Shown: in pieces, positions 16,940 to 54,968 of the stretch
Layout of the letters: the number at the start of each line of letters is the position of its first letter
Position numbering within the stretch: position 1 is the first letter of the stretch
Source of the DNA: a virus
Virus record (IMG/VR): IMGVR_UViG_3300008450_000005
Location: 52,158 to 116,157 of that record
Reading direction: 5' to 3' (one strand)
DNA: 64,000 nucleotides
The notes under the pieces: generated by a model
Seen by the model: only the letters and a program-made list of their open reading frames with translations
Told to the model about the DNA's origin: nothing
Databases searched by the model: none
Translations under genes and position numbers: made by a program

Positions 16940-17173
16940 ATGAAAACGTTTTCCCAAATACAGAGACTTAATGAAATGAAGTACGGACAACCTTTGTACG
17001 ACGAGAAGGATCTGATGAAAAACCATCTTATCACTGCAGCAGGAAACGATGTAAGAGTATTGAACGACATCGTAGCTTGTTTAAGTGAGGATCAGATGAA
17101 GAAGTGTTACGATAAACTTGTTAAAGAATACGCTTTCACTGGCAAACAAGGTGAAAACGTACCAAGCAAATAA
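16940..17173 (+). CDS. Small protein with capsid-targeting-like N-terminus
   Basis: 77 residues. It begins MKTFSQIQRLNEM, a variant of the MKxxxxF...NE leader seen at the start of about ten proteins here and similar to the T4 capsid-targeting sequence MKTYQEFxxE. Removal after LNE would leave a 65-residue helical protein with two Cys. A late-type promoter motif lies upstream, as expected of a virion component. No family is recognised. Confidence 0.5.
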   Translation: MKTFSQIQRLNEMKYGQPLYDEKDLMKNHLITAAGNDVRVLNDIVACLSEDQMKKCYDKLVKEYAFTGKQGENVPSK

Positions 17174-17176
17174 TGA

Positions 17177-17518
17177 ATGTCTGGTCTCGTTGGAATAATC
17201 TATGGCTGGGATAGCTCCGGTAAGACCCTATCGGTTTTAATTAATCCCGATTTGGTTACAACCACGGAATCTACTTCTACGACTTTCTCTATCGTTTCTA
17301 AAGCTGTTAACTCCACGGTTGATCTATCTGTGACCAACCCCGGTCATGAAGCTTATGGTACTGCTTATAATTTTACTGGTCCGGCGGGAAGCGGTGATTT
17401 TATGAATTCATCATGGCAAAAAGCTGTTAACAATACAACATCAACACAAACGTTCATCTTTTTAGATTTCGCTTCTCAAGGTTACATCACGCAGAAAAGA
17501 ATTTTAATATATCCCTAA
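17177..17518 (+). CDS. Hypothetical structural protein, small
   Basis: 113 residues, Ser/Thr-rich (TTTESTSTTF) and beta-rich with a GPAGSG turn. It begins 3 bases after the preceding stop and ends 4 bases before the C1q-like protein gene, so these form one short operon. Composition and neighbours suggest a fibre or decoration protein; the family is not recognised. Confidence 0.5.
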   Translation: MSGLVGIIYGWDSSGKTLSVLINPDLVTTTESTSTTFSIVSKAVNSTVDLSVTNPGHEAYGTAYNFTGPAGSGDFMNSSWQKAVNNTTSTQTFIFLDFASQGYITQKRILIYP

Positions 17519-17522
17519 GATA

Positions 17523-18347
17523 ATGGAATATGTTCAATTCATACTGAATACAAATAGTTCGGGACAGAACACTACCCAATCATTCCCGCTGGAAGCAATT
17601 TCGGAGATATATTCAACCGAGGATGCTGTGGTTCTATTTTTCGATTCAGTTTCTGCAACTTTAGCTGGTGAGATAAACAGTAGAAAATACTATTACGGAA
17701 CTAGAATTACCCTTTTCAAAACTGGAAATGGCAACAATATTCTTGGTGGTTTATTAAACGCTCTATCTAAAGCTTATTGGTCCGATGCTGTTTTCCCTAC
17801 CATTATAAATTTAACACAACTTACAAATACCATAACCGTTGAAGATATTGTTGGTTCTAGCTATCCTGCGGGAGGAACCGGCGCATTCATGCCATGCGGG
17901 TCATTTTATGATACAACATCACAGCTGAGCGGTGGTATAACTGCTGCTAATATTATTACATTTAACACCACGACTATAACCAATGGCGTTTATGTGACTG
18001 GCGGATCCAGGATGACCGTACAGTATCCCGGAATTTATAATATCCAATTCTCCGCACAAATAGACAAAACGGATAGCGGTATCGATTTCGTAGATCTTTG
18101 GCTCTCTAAAAATGGAGCAAACCTCCCCGATAGTAACACCTCCCTGTACCTTCCTGGAAATAACGCTAAAGTGGTTGCCGCATGGAACTTCGTGATCGCG
18201 GCTTCGGGCGGAGATTATTTTGAATTAGTTTGGTCTTCGACCGACGAAGATGTTTTATTGTATTATCAAGGACCTACCTCAGGTCCATTACGTCCGGCAA
18301 TCCCCTCTGTCATTGCATCGGTGACCTGGGCGGGAGCTACAGCTTAA
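17523..18347 (+). CDS. Fibre/receptor-binding protein with C1q/TNF-like jelly roll
   Basis: 274 residues. The C-terminal 145 residues read as a C1q/TNF-type jelly roll: an N-terminal strand pair around MPCGSFYDTTSQ, then GVYVTGGSRMTVQYPGIYNI, a FVDLWLSKNGA strand, and VAAWNFVIAASGGDYFELVW. The motif order of aromatic strand, PG-x-Y and D/W-L-x-K-N-G is typical of C1q-like domains used by phages as trimeric receptor-binding tips. The first 120 residues are an unrelated small domain, probably for attachment. It closes the structural block. Confidence 0.6.
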   Translation: MEYVQFILNTNSSGQNTTQSFPLEAISEIYSTEDAVVLFFDSVSATLAGEINSRKYYYGTRITLFKTGNGNNILGGLLNALSKAYWSDAVFPTIINLTQLTNTITVEDIVGSSYPAGGTGAFMPCGSFYDTTSQLSGGITAANIITFNTTTITNGVYVTGGSRMTVQYPGIYNIQFSAQIDKTDSGIDFVDLWLSKNGANLPDSNTSLYLPGNNAKVVAAWNFVIAASGGDYFELVWSSTDEDVLLYYQGPTSGPLRPAIPSVIASVTWAGATA

Positions 18348-18362
18348 ATTGTAAAAATTCGC

Positions 18363-19097
18363 ATGAACAACACCTGCTATATAGGAATAGATTTTTCACT
18401 CAACTCCCCAGCTTTTTGTATAATTACTGAAAAAGAAACAATGTGGGGCAGTTTGACCCGCACGGATAGGACCTCCGAATCTCTAAAAAAATCTAAGGAC
18501 AAGCCCTATGCCATTTTGGATGGATTTGAACAGTTCGATCTTTTCTTTCTTGATAAGAAGGAATTGCCGGATGATTACAGTCAGAAGGAAAGGGTTAAAA
18601 TCGCATACTTTCAGGAGCTTGTTGAAGTTTTCTGGAATAAAATACTAAGCCATGTAGACGTAACCAACGCTTACGTAGCTATGGAAGGACTAAGTTTTAT
18701 GTCGGCTGGAAATGCTCTGATAGACATTTCCATGGCCACCGCTTTGATCCGAAAAAAAATCATTGACTCTATAGATAGCGAGAGGTTCCACGTTTTTTCG
18801 CCAACAGAAATAAAAAAATTCGCCGGAAAGGGCAACTTTAAGAAGGATGAGATGTATGATTCTCTAATAGCTTCCAAAAGAATTCCCTTGCTCTGCGACA
18901 TACTTGAAAAAAATCGAAACAATTGGATAACCCCATCTCTACAGATTAATAAACCGGTAGACGATTTAGTTGATGCCACATGGATATCACTCTTTTTAAA
19001 AGACATCGTTGAAGGAAATTTTGAACAAATTGAAACCAAAAAGAAAAAAACAATTAAAAAGAAAACAACAAAAACAAAAAAAATTGAGAAATTATGA
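18363..19097 (+). CDS. RuvC-like Holliday junction resolvase (RNase H fold)
   Basis: 244 residues. Asp10 in YIGIDFSLNSPA matches the first catalytic Asp of the RuvC fold (GIDxS/GLxxTG). Glu108 in VAMEGLSF matches the second acidic residue, and the pair DD at 200-201 with Asp204 (KPVDDLVDAT) the C-terminal acidic site. The last 25 residues are almost all Lys and Thr, likely a DNA-binding tail. It overlaps the ssDNA-binding protein gene by ATGA, so branch resolution is co-expressed with recombination proteins. T4 uses an unrelated enzyme (gp49, endonuclease VII) for this step, so this is a functional replacement by inference. Confidence 0.75.
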   Translation: MNNTCYIGIDFSLNSPAFCIITEKETMWGSLTRTDRTSESLKKSKDKPYAILDGFEQFDLFFLDKKELPDDYSQKERVKIAYFQELVEVFWNKILSHVDVTNAYVAMEGLSFMSAGNALIDISMATALIRKKIIDSIDSERFHVFSPTEIKKFAGKGNFKKDEMYDSLIASKRIPLLCDILEKNRNNWITPSLQINKPVDDLVDATWISLFLKDIVEGNFEQIETKKKKTIKKKTTKTKKIEKL

Positions 19098-20092
19098 GTA
19101 ATTTAAATGACATCTTCAATCTGAGCAACGACATGTTCGTTACCCAAACACAACAAAAAGAATCAAGAGATCTTGAATTTTACAAACCCTATGCTGAAAA
19201 TGGCAAAGATGGCGTGTACAAATCCCTGATCAGATTCGTTCCGAATCCTGTTGAACCTGCTAAAAGCAAAATCCACAAGTACTATGTGTATTTGAAAGAT
19301 CCCGTTACCGGAGACGCTTTTTCAGTTGATTGTCCTAGCACAGTAGGAAAGAAAAGTGTCTTGAAAGATCTTTTCTGGAAGCTAAAGCAATCCCATTCGG
19401 CAGCAGATCAAGAATTATCAAAAAGCTTCTCACGTAAAGAAGATTTTTATTCTTTGATCCAAATCGTGAAGGATCCTAATAAACCCGAATTGGAAGGCAA
19501 AGTGATGCTTTGGAAATTCGGTAAGAAAGTAAATGATATGATCGAATCTCAGTTAAAGCCTGAGTATGGAGAAGCTTGCAATCCTTACGATCTTTTTGAT
19601 GGTAAACTTTTCGCTGTCCATGTAAGAAAGGTTGGCGATTGGAACAACTACGATCTTTGCCAATTTATCGGCGAAAGAACTTCAATCGAAGTTGAGGGTC
19701 AAAAAATGCAGAAAAAACAGGACGACATGGAAAAGATCGTTGAGTATCTTAAGACCGGTCCTTCTAACCTAACAAGTTTCGATTATAAAGATTGGGATGA
19801 CGAATTGACCGAGAAAGTTATGACGGTTATTCGTAACACAGTCCCAGACGGTAGGTTGATCAACGAGATCACAAGCGGAGCAAGCAGTCAAAAATCTAGC
19901 TCTTCGTCTTATTCCCAGCCTAAACAAAATACATCTCCATCAGCACCCGCTAAAAATGAGACTAAGGAAACCGGCATTGACGATTTCTTTAACTCTTCAG
20001 AAACACCAGCGGCAAAGTCACAGCCATCTAATTCAGGCTCGAACAGCGATGATAAGATGTCTTCTCTCGAGGATTTATACGCTGATTTATAA
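19094..20092 (+). CDS. 32: ssDNA-binding protein, T4 gp32 family
   Basis: 332 residues against 301 for T4 gp32. The OB-fold core is recognisable (YKSLIRFVPNP, HKYYVYL, VMLWKFGKKVNDMI, FAVHVRKVGDWNNYDLCQF), and the C-terminal 70 residues are a Ser/Pro/Asn linker leading to an acidic tail (DDFFNSS, SLEDLYADL) as used by gp32 to bind replication partners. The H-C-C-C zinc site of T4 gp32 is not visible: only Cys80 is found where the zinc ribbon should be, so the domain seems to have lost metal. It is coupled to the RuvC-like gene and followed by a strong terminator. Confidence 0.85.
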   Translation: MSNLNDIFNLSNDMFVTQTQQKESRDLEFYKPYAENGKDGVYKSLIRFVPNPVEPAKSKIHKYYVYLKDPVTGDAFSVDCPSTVGKKSVLKDLFWKLKQSHSAADQELSKSFSRKEDFYSLIQIVKDPNKPELEGKVMLWKFGKKVNDMIESQLKPEYGEACNPYDLFDGKLFAVHVRKVGDWNNYDLCQFIGERTSIEVEGQKMQKKQDDMEKIVEYLKTGPSNLTSFDYKDWDDELTEKVMTVIRNTVPDGRLINEITSGASSQKSSSSSYSQPKQNTSPSAPAKNETKETGIDDFFNSSETPAAKSQPSNSGSNSDDKMSSLEDLYADL

Positions 20093-27425: not shown

Positions 27426-27436
27426 GATATATAGAG
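27426..27436 (+). promoter_or_regulatory. Late-type promoter motif (GATATATAGAG)
   Basis: Lies 10 bases before the ATG at 27447 in a 27-base gap. Confidence 0.5.
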
Positions 27437-27446: not shown

Positions 27447-27989
27447 ATGACAAAGCACATTCTTTCTTACGATTCTTTCCTCACCAACGGGGTGAATGAG
27501 TCCGATGGGTTCGGAACTCTCCCATTTTTGGAGAAAAGAACCGGCAACATCTACAACTACTTTTTCAAGGTTGAAGATGAGGATCAGAGCGAGAATTGCT
27601 TCTTCCTGTCATTGGGTAAATACTCGGAATTCCAAGACACACCCGGTCCTAAAAACTCTTATACTGTTATGAGATTGAACAAGATCTCTGAGCAATTATT
27701 AGAGGACCTAGCAATAGATAAAGCCGATGTGCCTCTATTGAATAAGGAGAAATTTGTGGTTAAAGGAATGATGGCTACGAGATTATTGGAAACTTGCGCA
27801 CAAGCTTTGCTCGATTACCTCCAGAATAATCCTCAGGTTATCAGAATTTTCGATGAAATGCAGGTCAATGCTGATTTCCCAGATCGTGACTATATAGATG
27901 ACATGAAGGTAACCGCATCACAATTTCTTGGTGATGAGTGGTCAGTACAGCAGGGTCCAAACCCTGAAAGTTTGATAATCAGTCGTTGA
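27447..27989 (+). CDS. Hypothetical protein with capsid-targeting-like N-terminus
   Basis: 180 residues. The start MTKHILSYDSFLTNGVNES has the hydrophobic-aromatic-acidic-Phe pattern and the (V/L)NE end shared by the capsid-targeting-like leaders here. The body is a mixed alpha/beta domain with an acidic C-terminus. A late-type motif lies 10 bases upstream. No family is recognised. Confidence 0.5.
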   Translation: MTKHILSYDSFLTNGVNESDGFGTLPFLEKRTGNIYNYFFKVEDEDQSENCFFLSLGKYSEFQDTPGPKNSYTVMRLNKISEQLLEDLAIDKADVPLLNKEKFVVKGMMATRLLETCAQALLDYLQNNPQVIRIFDEMQVNADFPDRDYIDDMKVTASQFLGDEWSVQQGPNPESLIISR

Positions 27990-28505: not shown

Positions 28506-29459
28506 ATGAGTGATAAATCTTATCTCCCACCACAGTCTCCAATCCTTATCCAGCCAGGAGATAAAGGATTTGAAACAGTTGGTAAAGCATACAACCGTAT
28601 GATCTGGACCTATGGAGATTGGGCAAAACGAAAGAAAAAGATCGTTAACCCTAATAAACTCTGGGACAAATACGGTAAGAAAATGACCAAAAAGGAGATG
28701 GATGCTGTTCTTAAGAATGCTTACCTCGAATCGGCTAATCCCGATGGAATCAATGAATCATCAGAAAACAAAAATTACACTAACAACATGTATCAAATGA
28801 ATGAAAAGTCCGTTTCATCAGCTCAGCAAAGATTGATGGGACAAGCTTGGGCTTTAAGAACAGGAGAAATTGATGCTGAAGACATCAATCCAATCTATCG
28901 CGATGCTATTGAAAAGATTGCATTCGGAGATATGACCGATAAAGAACTGAAGAAATTCGCTCAGACCAAGACTAAAGCTCTCCCACATCACGTGAGAGAT
29001 AATGGGCCTCAGCCCGGTCCTGCTGGTGTTGAAGAAACAGCATCACCTAAGCAGATTCCTTCTAATTACATTGGAGCAGTTCCAGGCGGATCCTCTGATC
29101 TACAAACAACACCTAATTTCAATTGGGACGCGGGGAAGGGAAAATCCTGGTGGGAAAACACCGGAAAAAAAGCTCCTTCGAGAATGAAGTTTATCAAAGA
29201 GTTTGATAATTTTTTAAATACCCACGGGGTCAACGAAATGCGCATGTCAGAAAGAGATAAGGTTGATGCTTTAATTGACCACTTAAAAGAAGTTCTTGAT
29301 CCATTCAGCTTCAGAGTAGCTTATGATAAAATGTTAGGATTGGTTATTGATCTAATGATCCCCGATTACGAAACGTTTTTCAATCGCTTCAAAAGCGTAC
29401 TTACCCGCGACGTTATTGAAGGTATTCCTGGATCCCTTAAACCAAGCACTGCAAAATGA
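28506..29459 (+). CDS. Hypothetical protein, possible head/core component
   Basis: 317 residues with three parts: a basic helical start (GDWAKRKKKIVNPNKLWDKYGKK), a Pro/Gly/Asn-rich linker (about 155-215, with GPQPGPAG and GAVPGGSS), and a helical C-terminal domain. An internal copy of the leader-like element occurs at about residues 223-240 (MKFIKEFDNFLNTHGVNEM), and an INES site near residue 83. These NE sites could be prohead-protease sites if the protein is packaged; this is inference. It overlaps the next gene by ATGA. Confidence 0.5.
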   Translation: MSDKSYLPPQSPILIQPGDKGFETVGKAYNRMIWTYGDWAKRKKKIVNPNKLWDKYGKKMTKKEMDAVLKNAYLESANPDGINESSENKNYTNNMYQMNEKSVSSAQQRLMGQAWALRTGEIDAEDINPIYRDAIEKIAFGDMTDKELKKFAQTKTKALPHHVRDNGPQPGPAGVEETASPKQIPSNYIGAVPGGSSDLQTTPNFNWDAGKGKSWWENTGKKAPSRMKFIKEFDNFLNTHGVNEMRMSERDKVDALIDHLKEVLDPFSFRVAYDKMLGLVIDLMIPDYETFFNRFKSVLTRDVIEGIPGSLKPSTAK

Positions 29460-31172: not shown

Positions 31173-33071
31173 ATGAGTAATAAAATTATCGGTATTGATT
31201 TAGGAACAACAAATTCTTGTGTTTCCGTCTTAGAGGGTGGAAAACCTGTAGTAATCGTTAACAACGAAGGAAAGAGAACAACTCCAAGTATTGTGAGTTT
31301 TAAAAATGGAGAAATTAAAATCGGCGATCCAGCAAAACGTCAGGCCGTGACCAACCCAACTGAAACATTATTTTCTGTAAAAAGATTTATCGGGTCTAAA
31401 TTCTCTGAGCTGAAGAAGGAAGCTCAAAGAATGCCTTACAAGGTTAAAAAAGGAACTGGTGATAAAGTTTTGATCGAAGCAAACCAGAAGGAGTATATCC
31501 CTCAAGAGATTTCTGCTATGGTTTTACAGAATCTGAAAAAGACTGCGGAAGATTACCTGGGAGAAACAGTTTCCAAAGCAGTGATCACCGTGCCTGCTTA
31601 TTTCAACGACAGTCAGAGACAGGCAACAAAAGAAGCGGGCGAAATTGCTGGATTGGAAGTTTTGAGAATTATCAACGAGCCAACCGCTGCAGCACTAGCC
31701 TATGGATTGGACAGAAAAGACAAAGACCAAAAGGTAGTTGTTTTTGACATCGGCGGAGGTACCCACGACGTTTCAATTCTAGAAATTGGTTCTGGTGTAT
31801 TCGAGGTTCTTTCAACCAGCGGGGATACTCATTTGGGTGGTGATGATTTTGACGAGAGAATTGTTGACTGGATCATATCAGAATTTAAAAACGAAAGCGG
31901 GATCGATATTGGTCAGGATGCAATGGCTTTACAGAGGGTTAGAGAATCAGCGGAGAAGGCAAAGGTTGAACTTTCCTCTTCTGTTGAAGCTGAGATCAAT
32001 TTACCATACCTTTCAGCAGGAAGCGAAGGTCCTAAACACTTCGTCTCTAAATTAACAAGAGTAAAATTTGAGCAGATGATAGATGATCTAATTAAGCGAT
32101 CATTGGCTCCTTGCTCAACAGCAATGGTAGAAGCAGGATTGTTAAATTCGGATATTGATGAAGTGATCCTGGTTGGTGGAACAAGTAGAATCCCTAAGAT
32201 CCAGGAGGAGGTCGAAAAATTCTTTGGTAAAAAACCAAGTAAGAGCGTAAATCCAGATGAAGTGGTTAGTCTCGGTGCAGCAATTCAAGGAGGAGTTTTA
32301 GGTGGAGAGGTTAAAGACGTACTACTTCTTGACGTTACACCATTAAGCTTGGGTATTGAAACTATGGGTGGTGTATTTACAAAACTAATTGAATCTAATA
32401 CAACAATCCCAACGAAGAAAAGCCAAATGTTCTCAACCGCTGTGGATAATCAGCCAGCAGTTGATATCCACGTTCTACAGGGAGAACGCCCCATGGCATC
32501 AGACAACCGAACACTAGGAAGATTTCAGCTTACAGATATCCCACCTTCAATGAGAGGAATCCCTCAGATCGAGGTTACCTTCGATATTGACTCCAATGGT
32601 ATTTTGAGCGTGACTGCTTTGGACAAAGGAACTGGAAAAAAACAAAACGTGAGGATCGAATCAGGATCAAAGCTTTCTGAAGAGGAAATCGAAAGACTAA
32701 AAAACGAGGCAAGAGAAAACGAGGAGGAAGATAAGAAAAGACTGAGAAAATCCCAGATTATTAATGATGCTGAGAATGCTTGCATGCAGTCGGAAAAGGC
32801 TTTGGATGATTTCGGGAACAAAGTTTCCGATGACGAAAAATCAAAAATCAATGACAAGATATCCGAAATCAGGAAATTGAAAGATGCCGAGAATATCGAT
32901 ATGTTAGAAAAAGAAATTGATGAGTGTATGAAATTGATGAACGCGATTTCTGCTAGTATCTACTCAACTCCAAATTCTGAAAGCGAAAGCACGAGTACAA
33001 CCGGGACCCAAGAGGGTCAAGAGAATTTCGAGGATGTAGAATTCGAAGAAGTAGGCTCCAAATCAAAATAA
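31173..33071 (+). CDS. dnaK: Hsp70 chaperone DnaK
   Basis: 632 residues, full length. The ATPase signatures are intact: [13 protein letters not shown] (7-19), the [12 protein letters not shown] phosphate loop and [14 protein letters not shown]. The substrate-binding domain follows ([17 protein letters not shown]), then a helical lid and an acidic tail ending EDVEFEEV rather than EEVD. It folds proteins with DnaJ, and a dnaJ gene lies 13 kb downstream. Phage-borne dnaK is uncommon. Close similarity to bacterial DnaK throughout suggests acquisition from a host. It has its own repeat-rich upstream region and its own terminator. Confidence 0.95.
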
Positions 33072-33135: not shown

Positions 33136-33147
33136 GATATATAGATA
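33136..33147 (+). promoter_or_regulatory. Late-type promoter motif (GATATATAGATA)
   Basis: Between the dnaK terminator and the ferritin-like gene, 14 bases before the ATG at 33162. Confidence 0.5.
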
Positions 33148-33161: not shown

Positions 33162-33725
33162 ATGGAATCATTTAAGCACTTCAAAGGTAATAATAACGAG
33201 GCAATCGAATTGAGTATGGTGGCTATGCCCGAAATTACAAAGCCTAAAACTTTACCTGCGGACATCGTAACAGAGATCGAAAAAAGAATTGCAGGAGAAT
33301 ATAACGCACATTATACCTACAGAAATGCAGCTAACTGGTGCAAGAATATGAACTACAAAAAGGCTGCGGCATTCTTCGAAGCTGAGGCAGCTTACGAATT
33401 GGAGCATGCTAACATGTTGATGGATTACCTTACCCAATGGAATATCATTCCTAAGATGATGCCTGTAGATCCAAACATTCAATTCAAATCATTGGTTGGA
33501 ATCGTTGATGTAGCTTACGATGTTGAATATAATCTATTGCTTAATTATTCAGCGATGCAGAGTGCATTGTCTGATACACATCCAGCAACTTTCAATTTCA
33601 TTCAGAAATTCGTTGATATCCAAAACGAATCAGTAGCAGAATATTCTGATCTATTGAATGCTCTCGAGCTTGTGAATATCAATAACAAATTCGAGATCCT
33701 TTACTTCGAACAAACTTATTTCTAA
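33162..33725 (+). CDS. Ferritin-like diiron protein
   Basis: 187 residues forming a four-helix pattern. Glu46 (AGEYNAHYTYRNAANWC), Glu79 and His82 in the ExxH of AYELEHANML, Glu122 and the Q-N-E-S-V-A-E segment (154-160) line up with the ferroxidase ligands of bacterial non-haem ferritins such as FtnA. The helix order and the AAAFFEAEAAYELEHA run are characteristic. The first 20 residues (MESFKHFKGNNNEAIE) are extra and resemble the capsid-targeting-like leaders of other genes. It sits alone between two terminators behind a late-type motif. Iron storage or protection is inferred; virion packaging is speculative. Confidence 0.75.
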   Translation: MESFKHFKGNNNEAIELSMVAMPEITKPKTLPADIVTEIEKRIAGEYNAHYTYRNAANWCKNMNYKKAAAFFEAEAAYELEHANMLMDYLTQWNIIPKMMPVDPNIQFKSLVGIVDVAYDVEYNLLLNYSAMQSALSDTHPATFNFIQKFVDIQNESVAEYSDLLNALELVNINNKFEILYFEQTYF

Positions 33726-34199: not shown

Positions 34200-34498
34200 G
34201 AGAGGTGCTTGGTGTAAAGCCAATCTTTAATAAATTCGATAACCTTCTTAGCACCCAATCCTTCTGAGCGTAAAAGATTGACGAAGTCCTCGTTAGTTGA
34301 TAACTCATCGAGGTGGATATAGATTTTATCCTTTTCAAACATGGGGTCAATTACCATCGGAAGAGGCTGTTTCTTATCTACATAATTAACAGAATTTACA
34401 TTGTCTTTATACCATTCGCCAGGGACTACAACCGATCCAGGCGATGCTGAAATGTAATATTCTGCAACATAATTTTCGAAACTTTCGACTATCCTCAT
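34196..34498 (-). CDS. Small minus-strand protein with capsid-targeting-like N-terminus
   Basis: 100 residues, one of two credible minus-strand genes here. It starts MRIVESFENYVAEYY, with the same FExY and terminal (V)AE pattern as the leaders of other genes. The body is mixed alpha/beta with a helical end. Its last 4 bases overlap the glycosylase gene tail to tail, and it diverges from the polymerase gene with an 8-base gap. No convincing promoter motif was seen upstream. Function unknown. Confidence 0.5.
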   Translation of the reverse strand: MRIVESFENYVAEYYISASPGSVVVPGEWYKDNVNSVNYVDKKQPLPMVIDPMFEKDKIYIHLDELSTNEDFVNLLRSEGLGAKKVIEFIKDWLYTKHLS

Positions 34499-34506: not shown

Positions 34507-35922
34507 ATGTATCCAGATATGATAGTTGATATTGAAGCTAAGAAAGACCACCTGCACATTTCTACTTTTACCGAAGAGGGGGAACCAACATTCATCAACG
34601 TTCCAATCCCAGAAGAGGAAAGGTTCGTCTGGGAGAAGTGCCCGCATAATGACGCCAAGAAAGATCCTGTTTGGAGATCTTGGGACGGCGGCCATGTCAA
34701 AAAAGTAAAGTCTAACAAATTAGACAAATACCGCATTGCACAAATACTCGAGGAAGCTGATCGGGAATTAACTGCTCCACTATGGGCACACCAAAATCCT
34801 CGCAAATACTTTGTCGATATTGAGGTTGAGATTACTGAGGAGATGAAAGATGCATTGGACACAGAAAACGCCAAAAATCGAGTTCTCAGTATCGGTATAG
34901 CAACGGACAAGAACAAGATGATTGTCTTGGGTCTCGATGATCTATCAAGCGAGCAGATCGGATCGATTCATAAAAAGCTTAACACGCATTTTGAAAAGTT
35001 CGGAGAGGAATGGAGTTTCAAATACAGAAAGTTCGTTTCAGAATTCGACATGCTCTATACGTTCTTTAAAGATCTAGCTCCCAAAATGGCTTTGATTACT
35101 GGATGGAACTGGTTCGGATATGACTGGCCCTATTTGGTTAATAGAGCAAAAAGACTCAATATCGACCCTGCTATTATTTCAGCTTCCAGATATCTAATTG
35201 GAAAGAATCAATTACCCCAACACTTACTAATGGTCGATTATCTCGATATCTATAAAAAGTGGGACAGGGTGATCAAGATCAAAGAAAGCAATCGATTGGA
35301 CTACGTTGGAGAAAAAGCTATCGGTCTGAAGAAGATTGAATACAGCGGAAGTCTTAGAGATCTTTATCAATCGGACTTCGAAAAATTCATTTTCTATAAC
35401 GCGGTTGACTGTGTTCTTCTGCACTACATCGATCAGAAGCTGAAAACAATGCTGACGTATTTTAAGATTGCCGGAGTAACTGGAGTGGAGATATCCCGTG
35501 CACTTTCGCCAGTCTGGTCAACGGAGGTAATGATGCTGAGAAAATTTTTAGAGAGAAAACAGGTTTTGCTGAATATCCCTAAAGATGATAATCACGTCAA
35601 GTTCGCTGGTGGTTACGTAAAGGAACCAACTGTAGGATTACATGAATGGGTAGCTTGTTACGATTTTGCATCACTTTATCCTAACGCTATCGTGCAGTGG
35701 GGGATTTCGCCGGAAGCATATAAGGGAAAGAATGTAGCGGATCCAAAAGAAGAATGGGTAAGAACTGCTTCAGGAGCATATTTTGGAGGGGAGGAAGAAA
35801 AACCTATTCTCCGCACGATTGTAAAAGATCTATACTCAAAAAGAAGAAAAACCAAGGATCAAATGTTAGCACTTCAGTTAGAAATTGACAAATTACAAAA
35901 AGAATTGGAAAATTTCAAATAG
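34507..35922 (+). CDS. 43: DNA polymerase family B, N-terminal half (exonuclease and motif A)
   Basis: 471 residues holding the first half of a T4 gp43-type polymerase. Exo I is DIE at D104/E106, exo II is GWNWFGYDWPYL (199-210, Asp206), exo III is YNAVD (Tyr297 to Asp301), and palm motif A is DFASLYPNAI (386-395). The protein stops after a charged fingers helix (DKLQKELENFK) where intact enzymes continue to motif B. Motifs B and C are supplied by the gene at 49576-50733, 13.6 kb away. Together the halves total about 856 residues against 898 for T4 gp43. The stop is clean, so this is a split gene and not an obvious frameshift. Confidence 0.9.
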   Translation: MYPDMIVDIEAKKDHLHISTFTEEGEPTFINVPIPEEERFVWEKCPHNDAKKDPVWRSWDGGHVKKVKSNKLDKYRIAQILEEADRELTAPLWAHQNPRKYFVDIEVEITEEMKDALDTENAKNRVLSIGIATDKNKMIVLGLDDLSSEQIGSIHKKLNTHFEKFGEEWSFKYRKFVSEFDMLYTFFKDLAPKMALITGWNWFGYDWPYLVNRAKRLNIDPAIISASRYLIGKNQLPQHLLMVDYLDIYKKWDRVIKIKESNRLDYVGEKAIGLKKIEYSGSLRDLYQSDFEKFIFYNAVDCVLLHYIDQKLKTMLTYFKIAGVTGVEISRALSPVWSTEVMMLRKFLERKQVLLNIPKDDNHVKFAGGYVKEPTVGLHEWVACYDFASLYPNAIVQWGISPEAYKGKNVADPKEEWVRTASGAYFGGEEEKPILRTIVKDLYSKRRKTKDQMLALQLEIDKLQKELENFK

Positions 35923-39973: not shown

Positions 39974-39984
39974 GGATATATAGA
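39974..39984 (+). promoter_or_regulatory. Late-type promoter motif (GGATATATAGA)
   Basis: Directly after the terminator and 6 bases before the ATG at 39991; this position rules out the in-frame upstream start at 39970. Confidence 0.5.
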
Positions 39985-39990: not shown

Positions 39991-40626
39991 ATGAAAAATA
40001 TATTGGACTTTTCATCATTTCTTTTTGAGAGAGAATTACCTGATTCACAGGGAAAAATTATAGTGATTTTAGGCCCTCCAGGATCTGGTAAAGGAACAGT
40101 CACAAAAATTCTGAAAAACGATTACGAATTTCAGGAGGTCAAAGTGAAAGAGCTGATGACCAGCGATCCTACGAAAGCTTCCAAAGACAACGTGGTAACA
40201 GAAAGAGGAATGATGGATCTTTTGAAAGAGAGAATCAAATCATTGGATCTTAGCAAAAATATAGTTTTTGACGGATTTCCTAGAACCAGAAAGCAATCGG
40301 TTATTCTGGATAAGGTTTTGGGGGAAATGGGGATAGGCTTAAATCATGCAGTTTTCCTTGATATAGAAAAAGACGTTGCTGTGAATCGTCTAAGAAAGAA
40401 AGCTGAGAAAGATGGAAAGAAATTTGATTCCGCAGCTGTAGAAGAAAAATTCCAAGATTACGAAGTTCGTACCCTTCCGGTAATAGACCAATATAAGAAG
40501 AGCAGGAAAATGATCGAGATTAAAGATCTCGGTGATGCTGAAAAGGTTTCCGAAAAGATTGTCAAAAGACTGAAGATCAAAAAGATCGCAAGCGAAAAAC
40601 CGGAAGCCGAAAACAAGAAGGCCTAA
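39991..40626 (+). CDS. Adenylate kinase-like protein with capsid-targeting-like leader
   Basis: 211 residues. Walker A GPPGSGKGT (28-36), a NMP-binding segment (VVTERGMMDLLKERI), the DGFPRT motif of adenylate kinases, and the R-L-R-K-K-A and DYEVRTLPVIDQY lid/R-rich region are all recognisable. The first 20 residues (MKNILDFSSFLFERELPDS) precede the P-loop and resemble the MKxLxxFxxF leader of several unrelated proteins here. The C-terminus is a Lys/Glu-rich tail. A host-type Adk would start nearer the P-loop. Nucleotide phosphorylation is the likely activity; packaging in the head is speculative. Confidence 0.8.
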   Translation: MKNILDFSSFLFERELPDSQGKIIVILGPPGSGKGTVTKILKNDYEFQEVKVKELMTSDPTKASKDNVVTERGMMDLLKERIKSLDLSKNIVFDGFPRTRKQSVILDKVLGEMGIGLNHAVFLDIEKDVAVNRLRKKAEKDGKKFDSAAVEEKFQDYEVRTLPVIDQYKKSRKMIEIKDLGDAEKVSEKIVKRLKIKKIASEKPEAENKKA

Positions 40627-41966: not shown

Positions 41967-41976
41967 AGATATATAA
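41967..41976 (+). promoter_or_regulatory. Late-type promoter motif (AGATATATAA)
   Basis: Immediately downstream of the inverted repeat and 38 bases before the ATG at 42015. Confidence 0.45.
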
Positions 41977-42014: not shown

Positions 42015-42539
42015 ATGAGACACTTAACCCTTTACGAAAATTTTTCTGTCAAAGAGGTATTCGAAGCCGCTATTCCAGTTTACAATGAATTGGAAGTGTC
42101 AGCATCGGGTGCTGCTGAGCCAGATTTCACCGCCAAGTATTCTGAACTGATCGACATCATCGAAGAATTCTTGGAAAGAAAGAAAGCCGGAGAGATCGAA
42201 GAGATCACCGTTGTTGCTGATGTCCCCACACAGGGAAAAGGTGCACCTGACTACGTTCAGGACATCATCAGAAAAGAAAGAGAAAGAATTGCTACACAAA
42301 TGCGTTCACAGGGCTACGATCCTGAAGAAGACGACATCGACATCGACCGTTTCGGCGATAAGAGAAATATCTTCTTCGATTCAGAATTCGTAGTTGATTC
42401 AGTTGAAAAAGATGCTGATGGAAAAGGTGGAAAAATTATTGCAATTCCATATTCTTTCTACAAAAAAGGTGACTACACCAAGAAAGCTCACATCGATCCA
42501 TTGAAAATAGACGAGGTATTCTACAAGCCAAAAGCTTAA
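42015..42539 (+). CDS. Acidic hypothetical protein with capsid-targeting-like N-terminus
   Basis: 174 residues, strongly acidic. It begins MRHLTLYENFSVKEVFEAA, one of the clearest copies of the shared leader. Helical segment around EFLERKKAGEIEEITVVAD, Asp/Glu cluster DPEEDDIDIDRFGDKR, then a beta-rich end. It has its own tandem promoters and terminator, so it is a separately regulated unit. Function unknown; internal head protein is a hypothesis. Confidence 0.55.
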   Translation: MRHLTLYENFSVKEVFEAAIPVYNELEVSASGAAEPDFTAKYSELIDIIEEFLERKKAGEIEEITVVADVPTQGKGAPDYVQDIIRKERERIATQMRSQGYDPEEDDIDIDRFGDKRNIFFDSEFVVDSVEKDADGKGGKIIAIPYSFYKKGDYTKKAHIDPLKIDEVFYKPKA

Positions 42540-45942: not shown

Positions 45943-46962
45943 ATGAAGGACTATTACGCAACATTAGGGGTAGATCGGAACGCAACTCCGGAGCAGATCA
46001 AAAAGGCATACCGTAAGCTAGCCATCCAATACCACCCGGATAAAACTGGTGGAGACCCTGAGTTAAATCAAAAATTTACTGACCTGACAGAGGCTTACGA
46101 TACTCTTTCGGATCCAGCTAAAAAACAAAAATACGATAATCCCGTTAGTGGATGGGGTCCATTCCAAGGGATGGAAGACATCTTCAATTTCAATATGGGA
46201 GATATTTTCAGTGGTGGAAATCGAAGATCTAAATCTGTTAAAGGTCCTAACCTGATGATCATGGTTAATCTGACTTTGGAAGAAATGGCCACCGGTTCAA
46301 AAAAGGAAATCGAACTCCGAAAAAGAACGATGTGCGTTCCGTGCAGCGGAACGGGAGCTGATAATGGACAAGCTCAAACTTGTAACCAGTGTATGGGATT
46401 AGGATTCAGAAGGAAGTCTATTAATTCGGGTTTTGGTCAGATCACTATGGACGAGGCATGCCCACATTGCGCAGGTGAAGGAAAAATAGTTACCAACGCT
46501 TGTATCTCTTGCTTTGGAAACGGATTCGTGCACGCCAATGAAAGAATAGAGGTTAAAATACCAGCTGGATTTGTCCCAGGTATGAACTTCATCTTGACTG
46601 GCAAGGGAGAATGGGTTAGAGGTTGCACAATTCCAGGCGACGTAACTGTCAAAATAGAAGAATATGCTCACCCAACTTTCGAGAGATCAAATTTAGATTT
46701 GATCTGCAATAAGAAAGTATCATTTACTAAAGCTTGCCTTGGCGGGGATCTGGAAATACCAAATCTTCTTGGCGGGTCTTTTAAATTCAACATCCCTGAA
46801 TTAACTGCACCAGGAAGAATTTTTAGACTGCAAGGCAAGGGATTGCCAAATCACTCCAATGGAGTTAAAGGCGATATAATTGTTAAGATAGTTCTTGAAA
46901 TGCCAAAGGAACTTAACGAAGAAAAAATCTCAAAATTGAGAGAACTAGAAGAAATTTTATGA
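45943..46962 (+). CDS. dnaJ: Hsp40 co-chaperone DnaJ
   Basis: 339 residues. J domain with HPD at 31-33 (AIQYHPDKTGG), a Gly/Phe segment (FNMGDIFSGG), four zinc-ribbon repeats (CVPCSGTG, CNQCMGLG, CPHCAGEG, CISCFGNG) and a C-terminal client-binding domain. All key residues are present, so it should stimulate the phage-encoded or host DnaK. It is coupled to a small membrane protein gene. No grpE is seen in the window. Confidence 0.95.
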   Translation: MKDYYATLGVDRNATPEQIKKAYRKLAIQYHPDKTGGDPELNQKFTDLTEAYDTLSDPAKKQKYDNPVSGWGPFQGMEDIFNFNMGDIFSGGNRRSKSVKGPNLMIMVNLTLEEMATGSKKEIELRKRTMCVPCSGTGADNGQAQTCNQCMGLGFRRKSINSGFGQITMDEACPHCAGEGKIVTNACISCFGNGFVHANERIEVKIPAGFVPGMNFILTGKGEWVRGCTIPGDVTVKIEEYAHPTFERSNLDLICNKKVSFTKACLGGDLEIPNLLGGSFKFNIPELTAPGRIFRLQGKGLPNHSNGVKGDIIVKIVLEMPKELNEEKISKLRELEEIL

Positions 46963-49575: not shown

Positions 49576-50733
49576 ATGATGGAGATGGAAACAAAAACAA
49601 AGGATGATCTCAGAAAAGAAATAGAACGTCTAACCAATCTTAAGAATGAACTGAAGAACGAAGAGCAGGCGGTTAAGCTAACGATGAATTCGATTTATGG
49701 AGCTGTAGGAAACTCGTTTTTCGTTTGTCAGAATCCCGATGTGGCGGAAGCTGTAACATTGCAGGGACAAGACTTGATTAAGTTTGCGGAGAAGATTATC
49801 AATAGGTATTTCAATGAACATTGGCATATAGACAAGGAGTTACACGAGAAGATTGGTCTGACAGAGGTTCGAAGAATTGCTAGACCTCTAGTAATATACA
49901 TTGACACTGATTCGAACTATGTTTCTTTTGAGGAGGTTGTCAAATCGTGTGATTGGAATGGAACTCCAATGGATTTGATCTTAAAAATAAACGAGTACCG
50001 TATAAACGATTATCTCAAGAATTGCTTGAATATCTACGCTAAAAAATGGGGCACAGAAAACTGCCAGGATTTTGAGCTTGAGACATTATCACACAATGCT
50101 ATCTTCTTAGGAAAAAAGAAATACGTTGTCAACCTCGCTTATGACTCTGGGATAACTATCCAGAGTTTGAAAGAATTGAAATTCACTGGTGTTGAGATGG
50201 TAAAGGGCGGTACGCCTCCTTTTGTTCGGGAGAAGCTGATTTACTTAACCAAATACATCTTTACTCATGGTTCAAAATTTGAGTTAAAGAATTTCGTTAA
50301 AGAGATCAAAGATATCAAGAAGGAATTCAAGATTCAAGAACCCGATAGAATTTCTGCAGGTATCACATCTAATAACTACGAGAAGTTTATACTCAACGAT
50401 TCGACCTCTCTCGAGGTAGCAGGCAGCTGTCCTATCCACGTAAGAGCTTCGGGATTCCACAATTTCCTTCTGAATAATTCTAAATACAAAAGTAAATACC
50501 CGCTAATACAGAGTGGAGAAAAGGTCAGATGGTATTTCGTTAAAACCAAAAAAGTCACAGACTGCAATGTTTTTGCTTATTCACAAGGAACATACCCATA
50601 CGAATTTGCACCGGCGATTGACTATGATATGCAATTCACCAAAACGATTCTAGATCCGATAAATAGATTCATTGAAGCAATGGGTCATAATCCTATCAGT
50701 CCTAATTTATTTACCATAACAGCCTTATTCTAA
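49576..50733 (+). CDS. 43: DNA polymerase family B, C-terminal half (motifs B and C)
   Basis: 385 residues. It starts with a charged helix (ETKTKDDLRKEIERLTNLKN) then motif B KLTMNSIYGAVGN (34-46) and motif C YIDTDS (108-113), the palm catalytic Asp110 and Asp112. The thumb follows, with KKYVVN and the FTGVEMVKGGTPPFVR segment typical of gp43. No exonuclease or motif A is present; these are in the gene at 34507-35922. The helix before motif B resembles the helix that ends the N-terminal half, so both halves keep a fingers helix. Directly downstream of the clamp gene and its terminator. The gene must act in trans with the other half if active. Confidence 0.9.
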   Translation: MMEMETKTKDDLRKEIERLTNLKNELKNEEQAVKLTMNSIYGAVGNSFFVCQNPDVAEAVTLQGQDLIKFAEKIINRYFNEHWHIDKELHEKIGLTEVRRIARPLVIYIDTDSNYVSFEEVVKSCDWNGTPMDLILKINEYRINDYLKNCLNIYAKKWGTENCQDFELETLSHNAIFLGKKKYVVNLAYDSGITIQSLKELKFTGVEMVKGGTPPFVREKLIYLTKYIFTHGSKFELKNFVKEIKDIKKEFKIQEPDRISAGITSNNYEKFILNDSTSLEVAGSCPIHVRASGFHNFLLNNSKYKSKYPLIQSGEKVRWYFVKTKKVTDCNVFAYSQGTYPYEFAPAIDYDMQFTKTILDPINRFIEAMGHNPISPNLFTITALF

Positions 50734-52482: not shown

Positions 52483-52761
52483 TTAGCTATTTTTATAGAT
52501 AAAATCGTCCAATGCTTTTTCAGCACCAACCGTTAGACCTTTCTTTGCAAGAAATCTCAAAGCATTCTCCTTAAAACTGTTTCCAGTTCTGGCTGAAGTC
52601 CAAAGTGCAGAGGCTATAGTTGAGGTAATCTCGTCAGAATCCATCCACACATTCGAAAGAAACTCTTTCTCTTCTTCAGGCATCTTTTTGATACGCTCTA
52701 AAAACGATTCATATTTGTCGCTCTCGTTGAGAAAATCTTCGAATATCTTAAGGTTCTTCAT
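52483..52761 (-). CDS. Small minus-strand protein with capsid-targeting-like N-terminus
   Basis: 92 residues, start MKNLKIFEDFLNESDKYES, the clearest match to the shared leader (NES follows). All-helical. It reads opposite to nearly all other genes, yet has its own late-type motif (GGATATATAAT) 5-10 bases before its ATG on the minus strand. Function unknown. Confidence 0.6.
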   Translation of the reverse strand: MKNLKIFEDFLNESDKYESFLERIKKMPEEEKEFLSNVWMDSDEITSTIASALWTSARTGNSFKENALRFLAKKGLTVGAEKALDDFIYKNS

Positions 52762-52765
52762 AGCT

Positions 52766-52776
52766 ATTATATATCC
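52766..52776 (-). promoter_or_regulatory. Late-type promoter motif on minus strand
   Basis: On the minus strand the sequence reads GGATATATAAT, ending 4 bases before the start at 52761. The motif follows the direction of the gene, which supports a promoter function. Confidence 0.55.
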
Positions 52777-52802: not shown

Positions 52803-52811
52803 GATAAATAG
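52803..52811 (+). promoter_or_regulatory. Late-type promoter motif (GATAAATAG)
   Basis: On the plus strand, 3 bases before the ATG at 52815 and back to back with the minus-strand motif at 52766-52776. Confidence 0.5.
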
Positions 52812-52814
52812 AGT

Positions 52815-53216
52815 ATGAATATGATGAATTTTGAATCTTGGAACACTCTAAACGAAAAACTTTCCCCCGAGGAAATCAAAACTGTCGAGACTTACGCTGA
52901 TAAATTATTTTCGGATGTTGGCTTGGACGTTGAGTTTAGTAAGCATTTTAAGGACAGGATCAACGACGAGAGAAATAAGAAACCAATTACATCAGCAGAA
53001 CTAATAGGTCTATTTAAACGTGCATATTCCAAGTCAGGAAAAAAGATCGCTCAGCTGCCAGTTAAAGCGGAAGCGGTTATTCAAGATATGAGAACTGACA
53101 TCAATACTCCATTCGTTATAGAGTATGATCCTAGGAGTAAAGAACTTGATCTCAAAATGAAAACAATCATGAGAAAAAAGGATTTTCAAACAACAAATCC
53201 TAAGATCAGTATTTAA
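52815..53216 (+). CDS. Hypothetical protein with capsid-targeting-like N-terminus
   Basis: 133 residues, start MNMMNFESWNTLNEKLS, ending in an LNE site like T4 leaders. The rest is alpha/beta (FSKHFKDRINDERNKK and AELIGLFKRAYSKSGKK). A late-type motif is 3 bases upstream. No family is recognised; the segment resembles a type of small phage protein seen with the leader. Confidence 0.5.
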   Translation: MNMMNFESWNTLNEKLSPEEIKTVETYADKLFSDVGLDVEFSKHFKDRINDERNKKPITSAELIGLFKRAYSKSGKKIAQLPVKAEAVIQDMRTDINTPFVIEYDPRSKELDLKMKTIMRKKDFQTTNPKISI

Positions 53217-53300
53217 TTATAGAAAAAAACTTCCCTCTTTTTTAATTCACGGCCCATTTTTTGATATTTGTTATAGTTAATAATTAAATATCAAGAATTT

Positions 53301-53642
53301 ATGGAACAGAACCAACAATTTTTCCCTGGATTGAGCATCAAGGCTCGAGCCAAAAAATCTTTCTTAGCCGGTCTTAATAAGACCTGGAATCTGGTTATTC
53401 TTATTGCGTCTATGACCATTGCGTTCTACGCTGGACTTAATTACGATAAGGTTTCCGATGGTTTAAACCCCAAGAAAGACAAGTTCCCCCAGACCAAAGG
53501 TAGAACAACAGTTTCCGTGTCTGTCAACGACAGAGGGGAATTGGTTTTTATGGATAGGGAAGAAAACAAAATAACTATCTATAATGATACGATAGGAATG
53601 ATAATCTACGATTATTATTCTTTACATTTTCCTAAGAAATGA
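53301..53642 (+). CDS. Small membrane protein next to lytic transglycosylase
   Basis: 113 residues. One membrane helix at about residues 30-46 (LVILIASMTIAFYAGLN) followed by a soluble beta-rich part. The stop overlaps the transglycosylase start (ATGA), suggesting a lysis pair in which this protein may be a holin or anchor. The holin role is inference; a second helix typical of holins is not evident. Confidence 0.5.
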   Translation: MEQNQQFFPGLSIKARAKKSFLAGLNKTWNLVILIASMTIAFYAGLNYDKVSDGLNPKKDKFPQTKGRTTVSVSVNDRGELVFMDREENKITIYNDTIGMIIYDYYSLHFPKK

Positions 53643-54151
53643 AATTTGTTAAAATAATCATATTATTCTTCGCTGTGATCTTCGCTTCTTTCGTATGGAA
53701 AGTCCGTGCGGAAAAGGACATTATTAGTATTAACGATCCCACTTCTATCGATTGGAAATCTCCTTCAGTTAGAATGTATTTCGCACTGAAGACATATTCC
53801 GAAAAATACAATGTCCCGGAAGAAATTGCATTTGCATTTGCATACCGGGAAACAGGATATCGAGGTCCCAATCATAGAAATTATGAATGGAGATTGGTTT
53901 CTTCTGCCGGAGCTCTTGGAGCTATGCAGATCATGCCGGGGTCTGCCCGTAAATTTGCTCCAAAGAAATATTCAGATTCTCTTCTTTTGAACGACATAGA
54001 TTATAACGTCGAAACATCGATGAGGATCTTGAAATACCTCAAGAAGAGATTTGGAAGATGGGATCTTGCTGCAGGAGCTTACAATACGGGACGTCCAGTC
54101 GTGAACGAATATGCGAGGCAGGTGGCTTCACTTAGCTATGATTGGCTGTGA
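53639..54151 (+). CDS. Secreted lytic transglycosylase (SLT/lysozyme-like)
   Basis: 170 residues. N-terminal hydrophobic segment (FVKIIILFFAVIFASFVW) acts as signal or anchor. Catalytic Glu71 lies in YRETGYRG, followed by SSAGALGAMQIMP (89-100) and the AAGAYNTG motif (near 142). These match goose-type/SLT transglycosylases. It cuts the peptidoglycan during lysis or entry. Export would allow sec-dependent lysis without a large holin. Confidence 0.85.
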   Translation: MKFVKIIILFFAVIFASFVWKVRAEKDIISINDPTSIDWKSPSVRMYFALKTYSEKYNVPEEIAFAFAYRETGYRGPNHRNYEWRLVSSAGALGAMQIMPGSARKFAPKKYSDSLLLNDIDYNVETSMRILKYLKKRFGRWDLAAGAYNTGRPVVNEYARQVASLSYDWL

Positions 54152-54159
54152 TATATAAT
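54150..54159 (+). promoter_or_regulatory. Late-type promoter motif (GATATATAAT)
   Basis: Overlaps the transglycosylase stop codon, 5 bases before the ATG at 54165. A short inverted repeat GTGA...TCAC encloses it. Confidence 0.5.
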
Positions 54160-54164
54160 TCACG

Positions 54165-54968
54165 ATGAAGAACCTAATGCTTTTTGAGGATTTCTCCTTG
54201 ATACCGAAGAATAATATTCTATCCAAGATATTGGACGAAATTGATCCTGATATTCATGATCTTGTTGAAAAAATAAAGAAACAATTTCAGAAAAAATTTG
54301 AAAAACCAATGTCTAAATACGACGAGGAATTAACACGTTTGACAGTTATCAGTGACCTCGTTAAATCGATTGGTAACCACACTAAGCCAGATGATAAACT
54401 CAAAGAAATTGGCACCAGTGTTTCACCTAAAGGTAATTTGGAAATTGACGCTATAATTGTTAGAGACGAAAAAGAGTATCCTTTAAGTACTGAGGTGATT
54501 TACGCAGGTGGTCACAACATCCAAAGGTTACACTATCGATACATCACCAAAACTAGATTACCCAAATCCGTGAAGAACGAGCTAGCAGAAGAGTACCAGA
54601 AGAAAATCAAAAAAATGACAGCTGCTGAAAAACTTCGCAATGAGATTGAGAGTTTTGAAAAAAGAATTGAATCAAATGATAAAAGGGTAAAAGATTCGAA
54701 GACCTATAAAGATGATGAGATATTTGCGCTAAAGCAAAAAGAGAAAGATGCTTTCGTTTGGCCAAGCTGGGAAGAGCTTGTTTCAAGGGGTGCAGATAAG
54801 AACTACGATTACAGTGAGGAGAAGTTCAATAAGGAGAAAGAAGAGAGCAGAATAAGATCGATTAATTTCTGGAAAACACAAAATATTGAATGGCCGGAGA
54901 AAAATAGCGTTGCTCTTCGGAAAGAAGTTGATAAATTAGCGAAAAAATTAGCTGCTATCGAGCAGTAA
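54165..54968 (+). CDS. Hypothetical protein with capsid-targeting-like N-terminus
   Basis: 267 residues, start MKNLMLFEDFSLIPKNN (shared leader). N-terminal alpha/beta domain (GNLEIDAIIVRDEKEYPLSTEVIYAGGHNI) with a later charged coiled coil (about residues 140-195). It lies just before the tmRNA gene. No family is recognised. A packaged, possibly protease-cleaved protein is a hypothesis. Confidence 0.5.
   Translation: MKNLMLFEDFSLIPKNNILSKILDEIDPDIHDLVEKIKKQFQKKFEKPMSKYDEELTRLTVISDLVKSIGNHTKPDDKLKEIGTSVSPKGNLEIDAIIVRDEKEYPLSTEVIYAGGHNIQRLHYRYITKTRLPKSVKNELAEEYQKKIKKMTAAEKLRNEIESFEKRIESNDKRVKDSKTYKDDEIFALKQKEKDAFVWPSWEELVSRGADKNYDYSEEKFNKEKEESRIRSINFWKTQNIEWPEKNSVALRKEVDKLAKKLAAIEQ

Follow-up and report, generated by a model that had tools for sequence, protein, structure and literature searches.

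A probable T4-type capsid-targeting leader is shared by many otherwise unrelated proteins of a 116-kb phage and of its giant relatives

The 64,000-nucleotide stretch of phage DNA described here (the window) covers bases 52158-116157 of the 116,157-base virus record IMGVR_UViG_3300008450_000005 and contains ten genes whose products share a short N-terminal stretch, the leader, in which an aromatic pair precedes a triplet ending in glutamate (Table 1). We judge from sequence comparisons, with a probability of roughly 0.85, that this shared N-terminus is a capsid-targeting propeptide of the kind known from phage T4, in a greatly expanded system in which the tag would mimic one unit of the scaffold. 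A preliminary description of this DNA had quoted nine such N-termini, all of which are present as real translations in the open reading frame (ORF) lists of the window, the gene of a ferritin-like protein being the tenth; it had called the other parts of these proteins unrelated, which agrees with our finding of a short N-terminal stretch shared by otherwise unrelated proteins. It had placed the leader between positions 16940 and 54968, and the leader is real there, but this range proved too narrow as leader-like starts occur also around the capsid genes outside the window. Added here are the spread and number of leaders in giant phages, their association with a single promoter-like motif, and the resemblance of the leader to the scaffold unit.

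The pattern exceeds its controls at several levels. In a greedy mechanical set of 131 ORFs (82 from the window, 49 from upstream), used for the first statistics, the core pattern is found at 21 of 131 N-termini, whereas internal windows of these proteins, drawn 1000 times, gave 2.4 matches on average and never more than 9, and random genes of this genome therefore do not carry the leader as often, an outcome that the preliminary description had held out as decisive against it. A slightly different set of 128 ORFs of at least 50 amino acids (aa) each served for the later statistics, and either set may include a few spurious ORFs. Against shuffled N-termini, the core pattern together with the cleavage site was found in 16/128 ORFs of this phage (record G000; shuffle mean 1.7, maximum 5), in 29/490 of the family genome G009 (6.5, maximum 14), in 24/311 of G007 (3.9, maximum 14) and in 11/111 of G013 (1.2, maximum 5). 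The remaining 52 kb of the record could be used as a held-out test of the leader pattern because the preliminary description was made without sight of that DNA; leader-like starts near the capsid genes there are MKNLVSFSDYNLNES, MIKRYNQFLNEAS, MQNLRSFSDFSINES, MNLLRYDQYRINEG, MKKILEYREYL, MARIYDFNNF, MKHIKHLDEFF and (V)LYRFHQYINE. By region, counted with a slightly wider rule, 8/31 ORFs of the capsid/packaging part, 1/27 of the presumed tail part and 12/71 of the right part of the record have the leader. Among the 2227 positions at residues 6-22, 13 are the end of a triplet (L/I/V)NE; further on the count is 43 in 34,145 (p 2.6e-5), a lower rate even with the capsid protein and the scaffold included in the latter set. 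Among aromatic pairs at N-termini, i,i+3 is the sole spacing clearly enriched in this genome (28 vs. 14.8 internally); it is enriched as well in G009 (85 vs. 53), in G007 (55 vs. 38.5) and in LR756501, a 735-kb giant relative (258 vs. 130), the ratios for other spacings in these four genomes being 0.57-1.27. In LR756500, spacings 3, 4 and 7 are all raised (1.34, 1.35 and 1.51), and the three pooled control phages pT24, Lak-B5 and MaF61 have no spacing-3 excess (101 vs. 120). The residue two before Glu is aliphatic in 37-44% of cases in five family genomes, compared with 26% in the pooled controls, 32% in T4 and 11% in phage PAU. A chance or compositional likeness of AT-rich N-termini could appeal to the background of loose patterns, since 3-5% of internal Met contexts match the core and 1-2% the core plus site; it is refuted by the shuffles, the internal windows, the spacing controls and the control phages, and we regard its probability as negligible. 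At C-termini leader-like stretches show a modest excess, which is a lead, with 5/110 in this genome (1.2 expected; equal to the maximum of 300 internal draws) and 10/394 in G009 (4.2 expected, maximum 9).

Scanning of the IPIII signal of T4 with amber suppressors assigned targeting mainly to residues 4 and 7 and processing to residues 8 and 10, and the head protease gp21 cuts after L/I-x-E (excerpts of PMC9026906). In the T4 record, IpII and IpIII start with MKTYQEFIAE, which places Tyr, Phe, Ile and Glu at these four residues, and the window protein starting MKNLKIFEDFLNE↓S (the arrow marks a predicted cut) has the same order, F-x-x-F and then L-x-E. The preliminary description had compared its N-termini with the T4 capsid-targeting sequence, and this comparison is supported by the same layout of aromatic pair and (L/I)-x-E as in IpII and IpIII, by a head maturation protease, a like site in the capsid protein and a promoter-like motif shared in six genomes, and by the persistence of the leader on orthologues of adenylate kinase and other proteins. 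Like the T4 signal (MKTYQEFIAE↓A), the leader is a short N-terminal stretch on unrelated bodies, 10-19 residues long in T4 and up to about 25 in some predicted leaders here; it has aromatics at i,i+3 and ends in a (L/I)-x-E site, degenerate in some members; and it comes with a protease of the gp21 kind (by family name) and a like capsid site. Leader and structural genes here also have a promoter-like motif in common, and the leader genes may be expressed late. Unlike in T4, the leader marks some 20 proteins in a record of 116 kb and a larger number in several giant relatives, its length varies, metabolic enzymes are among the leader proteins, and the scaffold is fused to the protease and built of units of leader layout. 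A strict rule, F/Y-x-x-F/Y/H-(I/L/V/M)-x-E, matches three T4 N-termini (1.0 expected), those of IpII, IpIII and gp61.1, and misses IpI and Alt. T4 gene 61.1 (AF158101 18966-19130), which is annotated as hypothetical, starts MKTFKEFIKE↓D, and by this resemblance its product is possibly an overlooked internal protein; it goes unmentioned in the two papers in which it was looked for.

The proposed docking partner of the leader is encoded upstream of the window, in the capsid/protease region whose coordinates carry the locus label L002. The 654-aa protein of L002:6755-8719 matches PHROG 207, 'head maturation protease' (E 4.4e-31), and is directly followed by the major capsid protein gene; its presumed kinship to gp21 itself derives from the family name, and no solved structure matched the protease-scaffold family at E 0.01. 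The C-terminal part of this protein repeats a unit of 14 residues (e.g., ISYSEYIAENLDKN and SYSEYIAENLDK), with a period of 42 at the DNA level. Of the 17 internal copies of the strict motif in the whole proteome, 12 fall in this one protein (p 1e-17), the corresponding protein of five relatives holds 13 or 14 of 19-27 internal copies, and in four giant phages (records of 635-735 kb) a protein adjoining the capsid gene has 11-15 copies. One layout is common to the scaffold (Y-S-E-Y-I-A-E↓N), the leaders (F-E-D-F-L-N-E↓S) and T4 (Y-Q-E-F-I-A-E↓A). The capsid protein of this phage has the site YCHYHSLNE↓SAGA, with an aromatic pair (Y-C-H-Y/F) two residues ahead of L-N-E. CH(Y/F)HSLNESAGA is present in 79/80 related capsid loci, the remaining locus (L007) beginning downstream of that stretch, and the likely end of the pro-segment therefore has the same L-N-E↓S as the leaders. 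T4 gp23 has FLTE↓AEIGG near the equivalent place, the arrow here being the known cleavage point. As scaffold, capsid protein and leaders all have the aromatic pair ahead of the cleavable triplet, in the capsid protein two residues ahead of L-N-E, the motif might serve the head protease alone, as an extended recognition sequence, with docking on the core through other parts of the proteins; we consider this somewhat unlikely, because mutations in T4 separated targeting (mainly residues 4 and 7) from processing (residues 8 and 10; excerpts of PMC9026906). Near the protease gene, an 862-aa protein (L002:4116-6704) has two internal leader-like stretches, LKTFEDFAADFDLLNE and LNFSSFMRIYESAELIVE, and looks like a polyprotein with internal targeting or cleavage sites.

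Leader genes are moreover linked to one promoter-like motif. The motif GATATATA occurs 24 times on the plus strand and once on the minus strand of the whole record and is the most enriched 8-mer upstream of genes (20 genes vs. 0.7 expected). It precedes 11/19 curated leader genes compared with 9/109 others (p 3e-6), and the protease-scaffold gene is one of the non-leader genes that have it, as are genes of the presumed tail region. In the window, GATATATA or GATAAATA lies at most 60 nt upstream of 8/10 leader genes; the preliminary description had counted eight genes with a late-type motif close upstream, one of them on the minus strand, and GATA(T/A)ATA is indeed found 12-47 nt upstream of exactly eight of the ten, including 52761-, one of the two minus-strand members, the other (34498-) being without it. 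With leader sets defined by rule, the link recurs in all six genomes: G009 (29/65 vs. 29/425, p 1.4e-13), G007 (19/42 vs. 16/269, p 4.7e-10), G000 (11/28 vs. 9/100, p 4e-4), G018 (9/24 vs. 13/154, p 5e-4), G013 (7/15 vs. 9/96, p 1e-3) and G002 (5/11 vs. 11/111, p 6e-3). In LR756501, where five 8-mers were tested, a link to leaders was seen for AATATATA (39/151 vs. 105/862, p 4e-5) and TAATATAT (p 3e-5) and is absent for GATATATA (p 0.22). From the genes that they precede, we infer that motifs of the GATATATA type are late promoters. The T4 late motif TATAAATA was given up in favor of GATATATA because it lies at most 80 nt upstream of only 2 genes and of 0/31 leader genes defined by the core rule.

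The leader is conserved across relatives. A match to adenylate kinase is found in 10/21 long relatives, a set of ten that includes two near-duplicate pairs, and a leader stands ahead of it in 10/10, among others METLKYFNQFLNE↓RELPD, MENIVKSFSGFLNE↓RELPD, MSNENIINYEDFLFE↓KKK, MDLVKNFSDFLIE↓RELPD and MVDKAVDFSTFLNE↓MQIPD. For the ferritin-like protein 17 loci were found (one identical copy, 13 others read and three misread), with a clear (L/I/V/T)NE site in 9/13 of those read; in these nine the position that is Asn in the window protein, P3, is Leu, Ile, Val or Thr. Among orthologues of the 27447 protein, NE or HE precedes SDGFG in 4/5 other cluster members, the gene call of the fifth (G002) having omitted that stretch; the cluster of the 16940 gene has leader-like starts in 5/5 members, and an orthologue of the 34498- protein reads MKNLKNFDKFLFE↓W. 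The sole orthologue found for 54165 reads MSKLKTFGQFVNE↓S and one of 42015, from a contig scan, MNNLKLYEEFSKSLNE↓A, each preceded by GATATATA. On this evidence the window copies of these two genes seem to have drifted at the site. Scans of viral contigs gave 3 loci for 27447, 2 for 42015 and 2 for 54165, each including a copy of the own gene, and the scan with adenylate kinase alone returned only a copy of this phage's own gene. Clustering without N-termini sorted the 1340 proteins of six genomes into 670 clusters, of which 146 have at least one leader-like member and 19 have at least three members and leader-like starts in at least 70%; a few of these 19 are false by eye (clamp-loader-like, tail, helicase). 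An origin of the leader as a recent DNA cassette was ruled out as the codons at shared positions differ between genes, which points to conservation at the protein level. Leaders are dissimilar as DNA, and orthologues, those of adenylate kinase included, keep the leader while its letters change.

The bodies behind the leaders bear on what the tagged proteins are. Both identities given in the preliminary description hold, adenylate kinase by its match to PF00406 (E 2.8e-22; domain match from residue 26) and the ferritin-like protein by its match to PF00210 (E 8.9e-20), and these are the cargo bodies named in the window. Leader bodies in the relatives include a RimK-like ATP-grasp ligase, a poly(A)-polymerase/CCA-type enzyme, CHAP and peptidoglycan-binding proteins, an OmpA-type protein and a nucleotidyltransferase; such matches were obtained at E 0.001 for 7/20 chosen proteins, that of a second CHAP protein falling short of the curated cut-off. 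The leader proteins might instead be components of the prohead core or scaffold, like gp67 and gp68 of T4, which are cut and largely lost in maturation. Several leader genes adjoin the capsid gene (L002:10565-12397) and encode charged sequence that looks helix-like by eye, and the scaffold itself has the leader motif, but adenylate kinase, ferritin-like, RimK-like, poly(A)-polymerase-like and CHAP proteins belong to enzyme or storage families rather than to scaffolds. This makes the explanation unlikely for the leader proteins as a whole, and some of those beside the capsid gene may be core proteins and not delivered cargo. Short amphipathic N-termini can also direct localization or tune translation, and a leader that sends proteins elsewhere in the infected cell (to a membrane or a replication body) or adjusts their translation would draw on this general capability; we hold it to be very improbable, as Glu with an aliphatic residue two before it is common to leaders, capsid protein and scaffold, and the promoter-like motif is common to leader and structural genes.

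Table 1. Leader genes of the window, one weaker candidate and the minus-strand motif. Positions are those of the window; ↓ marks the predicted cut.
Feature	Coordinates	Strand	N-terminus and cut	Leader	Promoter-like motif
Leader gene, 77 aa	16940..17173	+	MKTFSQIQRLNE↓M	16940-16975	GATATATA at 16904
Leader gene, 180 aa	27447..27989	+	MTKHILSYDSFLTNGVNE↓SDGFG	27447-27500	GATATATA at 27426
Candidate leader gene (weak), 59 aa	28044..28223	+	MEKFNQLKALLE↓S		none found
Leader gene, 136 aa	29456..29866	+	MRHLRVFEKYSPFKE; cut site uncertain		no GATATATA within 60 nt upstream
Ferritin-like protein, 187 aa	33162..33725	+	MESFKHFKGNNNE↓A	33162-33200	GATATATA at 33136
Leader gene, 100 aa	34196..34498	-	MRIVESFENYVAE↓Y	34460-34498	no GATATATA within 60 nt
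Adenylate kinase, 211 aa	39991..40626	+	MKNILDFSSFLFE↓RELPDSQG	39991-40029	GATATATA at 39975
Leader gene, 174 aa	42015..42539	+	MRHLTLYENFSVKEVFE↓AAIPVY	42015-42065	GATATATA at 41968
Leader gene, 92 aa	52483..52761	-	MKNLKIFEDFLNE↓S	52723-52761	
Minus-strand GATATATA	52768..52775	-			14 nt upstream of 52761-; only minus copy in the 116-kb record
Leader gene, 133 aa	52815..53216	+	MNMMNFESWNTLNE↓K	52815-52856	GATAAATA 12 nt upstream
Leader gene, 267 aa	54165..54968	+	MKNLMLFEDF; cut site degenerate		GATATATA at 54150

Several entries of Table 1 need comment. The start of the adenylate kinase gene is an internal ATG within a TTG-started frame, and the body of the 52815 protein matches the C-terminal end of PHROG 23027. 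An AlphaFold2 model of the 42015 protein (5 sequences, mean pLDDT 78.5) has pLDDT below 50 at residues 1-16 and its first strand at residue 19, just past the predicted cut at 17; no known fold was found for it (best PDB E 1.5, best viral E 0.05). In a 317-aa ORF at window positions 28506-29459, an internal Met is followed by the leader-like stretch MKFIKEFDNFLNTHGVNE↓M, which may be a second start within the ORF or a docking site inside the protein. Apart from the leader genes, the window has a family B DNA polymerase split into two genes 13.7 kb apart (34507-35922 and 49576-50733), one comprising the exonuclease and the start of the polymerase domain and the other the remainder, with a charged, by eye coiled-coil-like stretch on both sides of the break, and genes identified by eye for a DnaK-type chaperone (31173-33071) and a DnaJ-type co-chaperone (45943-46962).

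The leader extends to much larger genomes. The core pattern plus site is found in 99/1013 ORFs of LR756501 (shuffle mean 16, maximum 31) and in 37/529 in 398 kb of LR756500 (mean 11, maximum 20), and N-termini matching the strict rule number 59 vs. 3.5 expected in LR756501, 22 vs. 1.8 in LR756500, 12 vs. 0.7 in G009, 8 vs. 0.8 in G007, 5 vs. 0.3 in G000 and 2 vs. 0.2 in G013. The number of leaders tends to rise with genome size. In LR756500 (L216, L225 and L226), neighboring genes have near-identical leaders, MKYIKEYEEF... or MKYIQTYKDF..., ahead of different or similar bodies, which suggests gene duplication under one leader. Judged by the capsid protein, the nearest named relatives include phages of Prevotella, Tenacibaculum, Chryseobacterium and Flavobacterium. 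Lak-B5, pT24 and MaF61 were rejected as members with this leader, since their core plus site counts lie within the shuffles; MaF61 has two strict matches (0.28 expected). In Lak-B5 (L236-L255), which has neither an excess of aromatic-pair leaders nor scaffold repeats, several proteins start with a looser stretch ending in LNE and then S or A, e.g., MKKFSFDKSIYKCLNES and MRTFKNNILNEA. The Sphingomonas phage PAU, an isolate, is similar in having a related capsid protein and a repeated leader such as MKTISKLYEAKLNE↓A: seven genes start MK...LYExKLNE or nearly so, among them gp142 and gp154, both annotated as 'internal capsid protein', and 15 further genes start with MK and a nearby LYE, LFE or MFE, a loose pattern. 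Unlike the leaders described here, the LYExKLNE dialect of PAU escapes the core rule, and the head proteins of PAU are without YSEYIAE repeats.

Two other known systems can be compared. Phages of the phiKZ type (SPN3US, phiKZ and 201phi2-1) likewise have many internal head proteins that are cut after x-x-Glu by a relative of gp21 (excerpts of PMC5694885). In them the cleavage motif reads A-x-E or S/A-x-E, and the propeptides are in many cases far longer (excerpts of PMC5694885 and PMC9026906), features not found here, where the residue two before Glu is aliphatic and the leaders have about 9-25 residues. In phage P1, the N-terminal 30 residues of DarB suffice to send a reporter to the capsid (excerpt of PMC9024508); by description, DarB resembles the leader proteins in having an N-terminal packaging signal and differs in being a single large antirestriction protein. 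With the terms tried, the open PMC library yielded no report of capsid-targeting leaders in these phages and none of a leader resembling scaffold repeats, and the protease-scaffold repeats with leader layout and the multiplication of leaders in giant relatives seem to be new.

Taken as a capsid-targeting propeptide, the leader would work as follows. Late in infection, proteins expressed from GATATATA-type promoters would begin with a leader some 9-25 residues long, and its aromatic pair, F/Y-x-x-F/Y, would dock them on the growing prohead core, that is, on the protease-scaffold fusion with its 12-14 strict copies of a 14-residue unit (Y-S-E-Y-I-A-E-N-L-D). As the core units share the layout of the leader, the leader probably binds by imitating one scaffold unit; in the simplest mechanism it would join the core as one such unit and be freed by a cut at the same site. 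The head protease would cut after (L/I/V)-x-E in the capsid protein, the scaffold repeats and every leader, and the mature adenylate kinase, ferritin-like protein and other bodies would stay inside the capsid and presumably be injected along with the DNA. Several observations weigh against this account. A clean site is absent in several leaders (54165 and 29456), the ferritin-like protein has Asn at P3, and 4/13 of its orthologues read are without a clear site. Core plus site reaches 9/178 in G018, which equals the shuffle maximum (mean 2.1, maximum 9), and 5/122 in G002, which is within the shuffles (mean 1.4, maximum 6), and both genomes are weak by the strict rule as well (G002, 1 vs. 0.28 expected; G018, 2 vs. 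0.35). Loose rules are matched by 3/15 genes of the replication, nucleotide and chaperone classes (assigned by Pfam or by eye), not significantly fewer than elsewhere; none of the three resembles a leader by eye. On the side of the scaffold, T4 proteins contain the strict motif once at most, and the T4 scaffold is thus without such repeats; LR756500, which is rich in leaders, has only 3 strict repeats; and AlphaFold2 models the scaffold poorly (mean pLDDT 49), showing the repeat region as an extended helix, for which this is weak support.

A more general proposal, which we consider evenly balanced between true and false, is that one lineage of large and giant phages, with records of 116 to 735 kb, builds its prohead core as a polymer of 14-residue scaffold units and uses a single unit-like leader as an open loading code, so that any protein acquiring it would be co-assembled and then freed by the protease. 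With more leaders tending to occur in larger genomes, the largest phages might introduce tens of different enzymes and effectors at infection. If the account is true, a simple sequence rule would list the protein cargo of uncultured giant phages and tell which enzymes enter the host with the DNA, and the question of how a capsid-targeting sequence works would have a testable answer, namely imitation of one scaffold unit.

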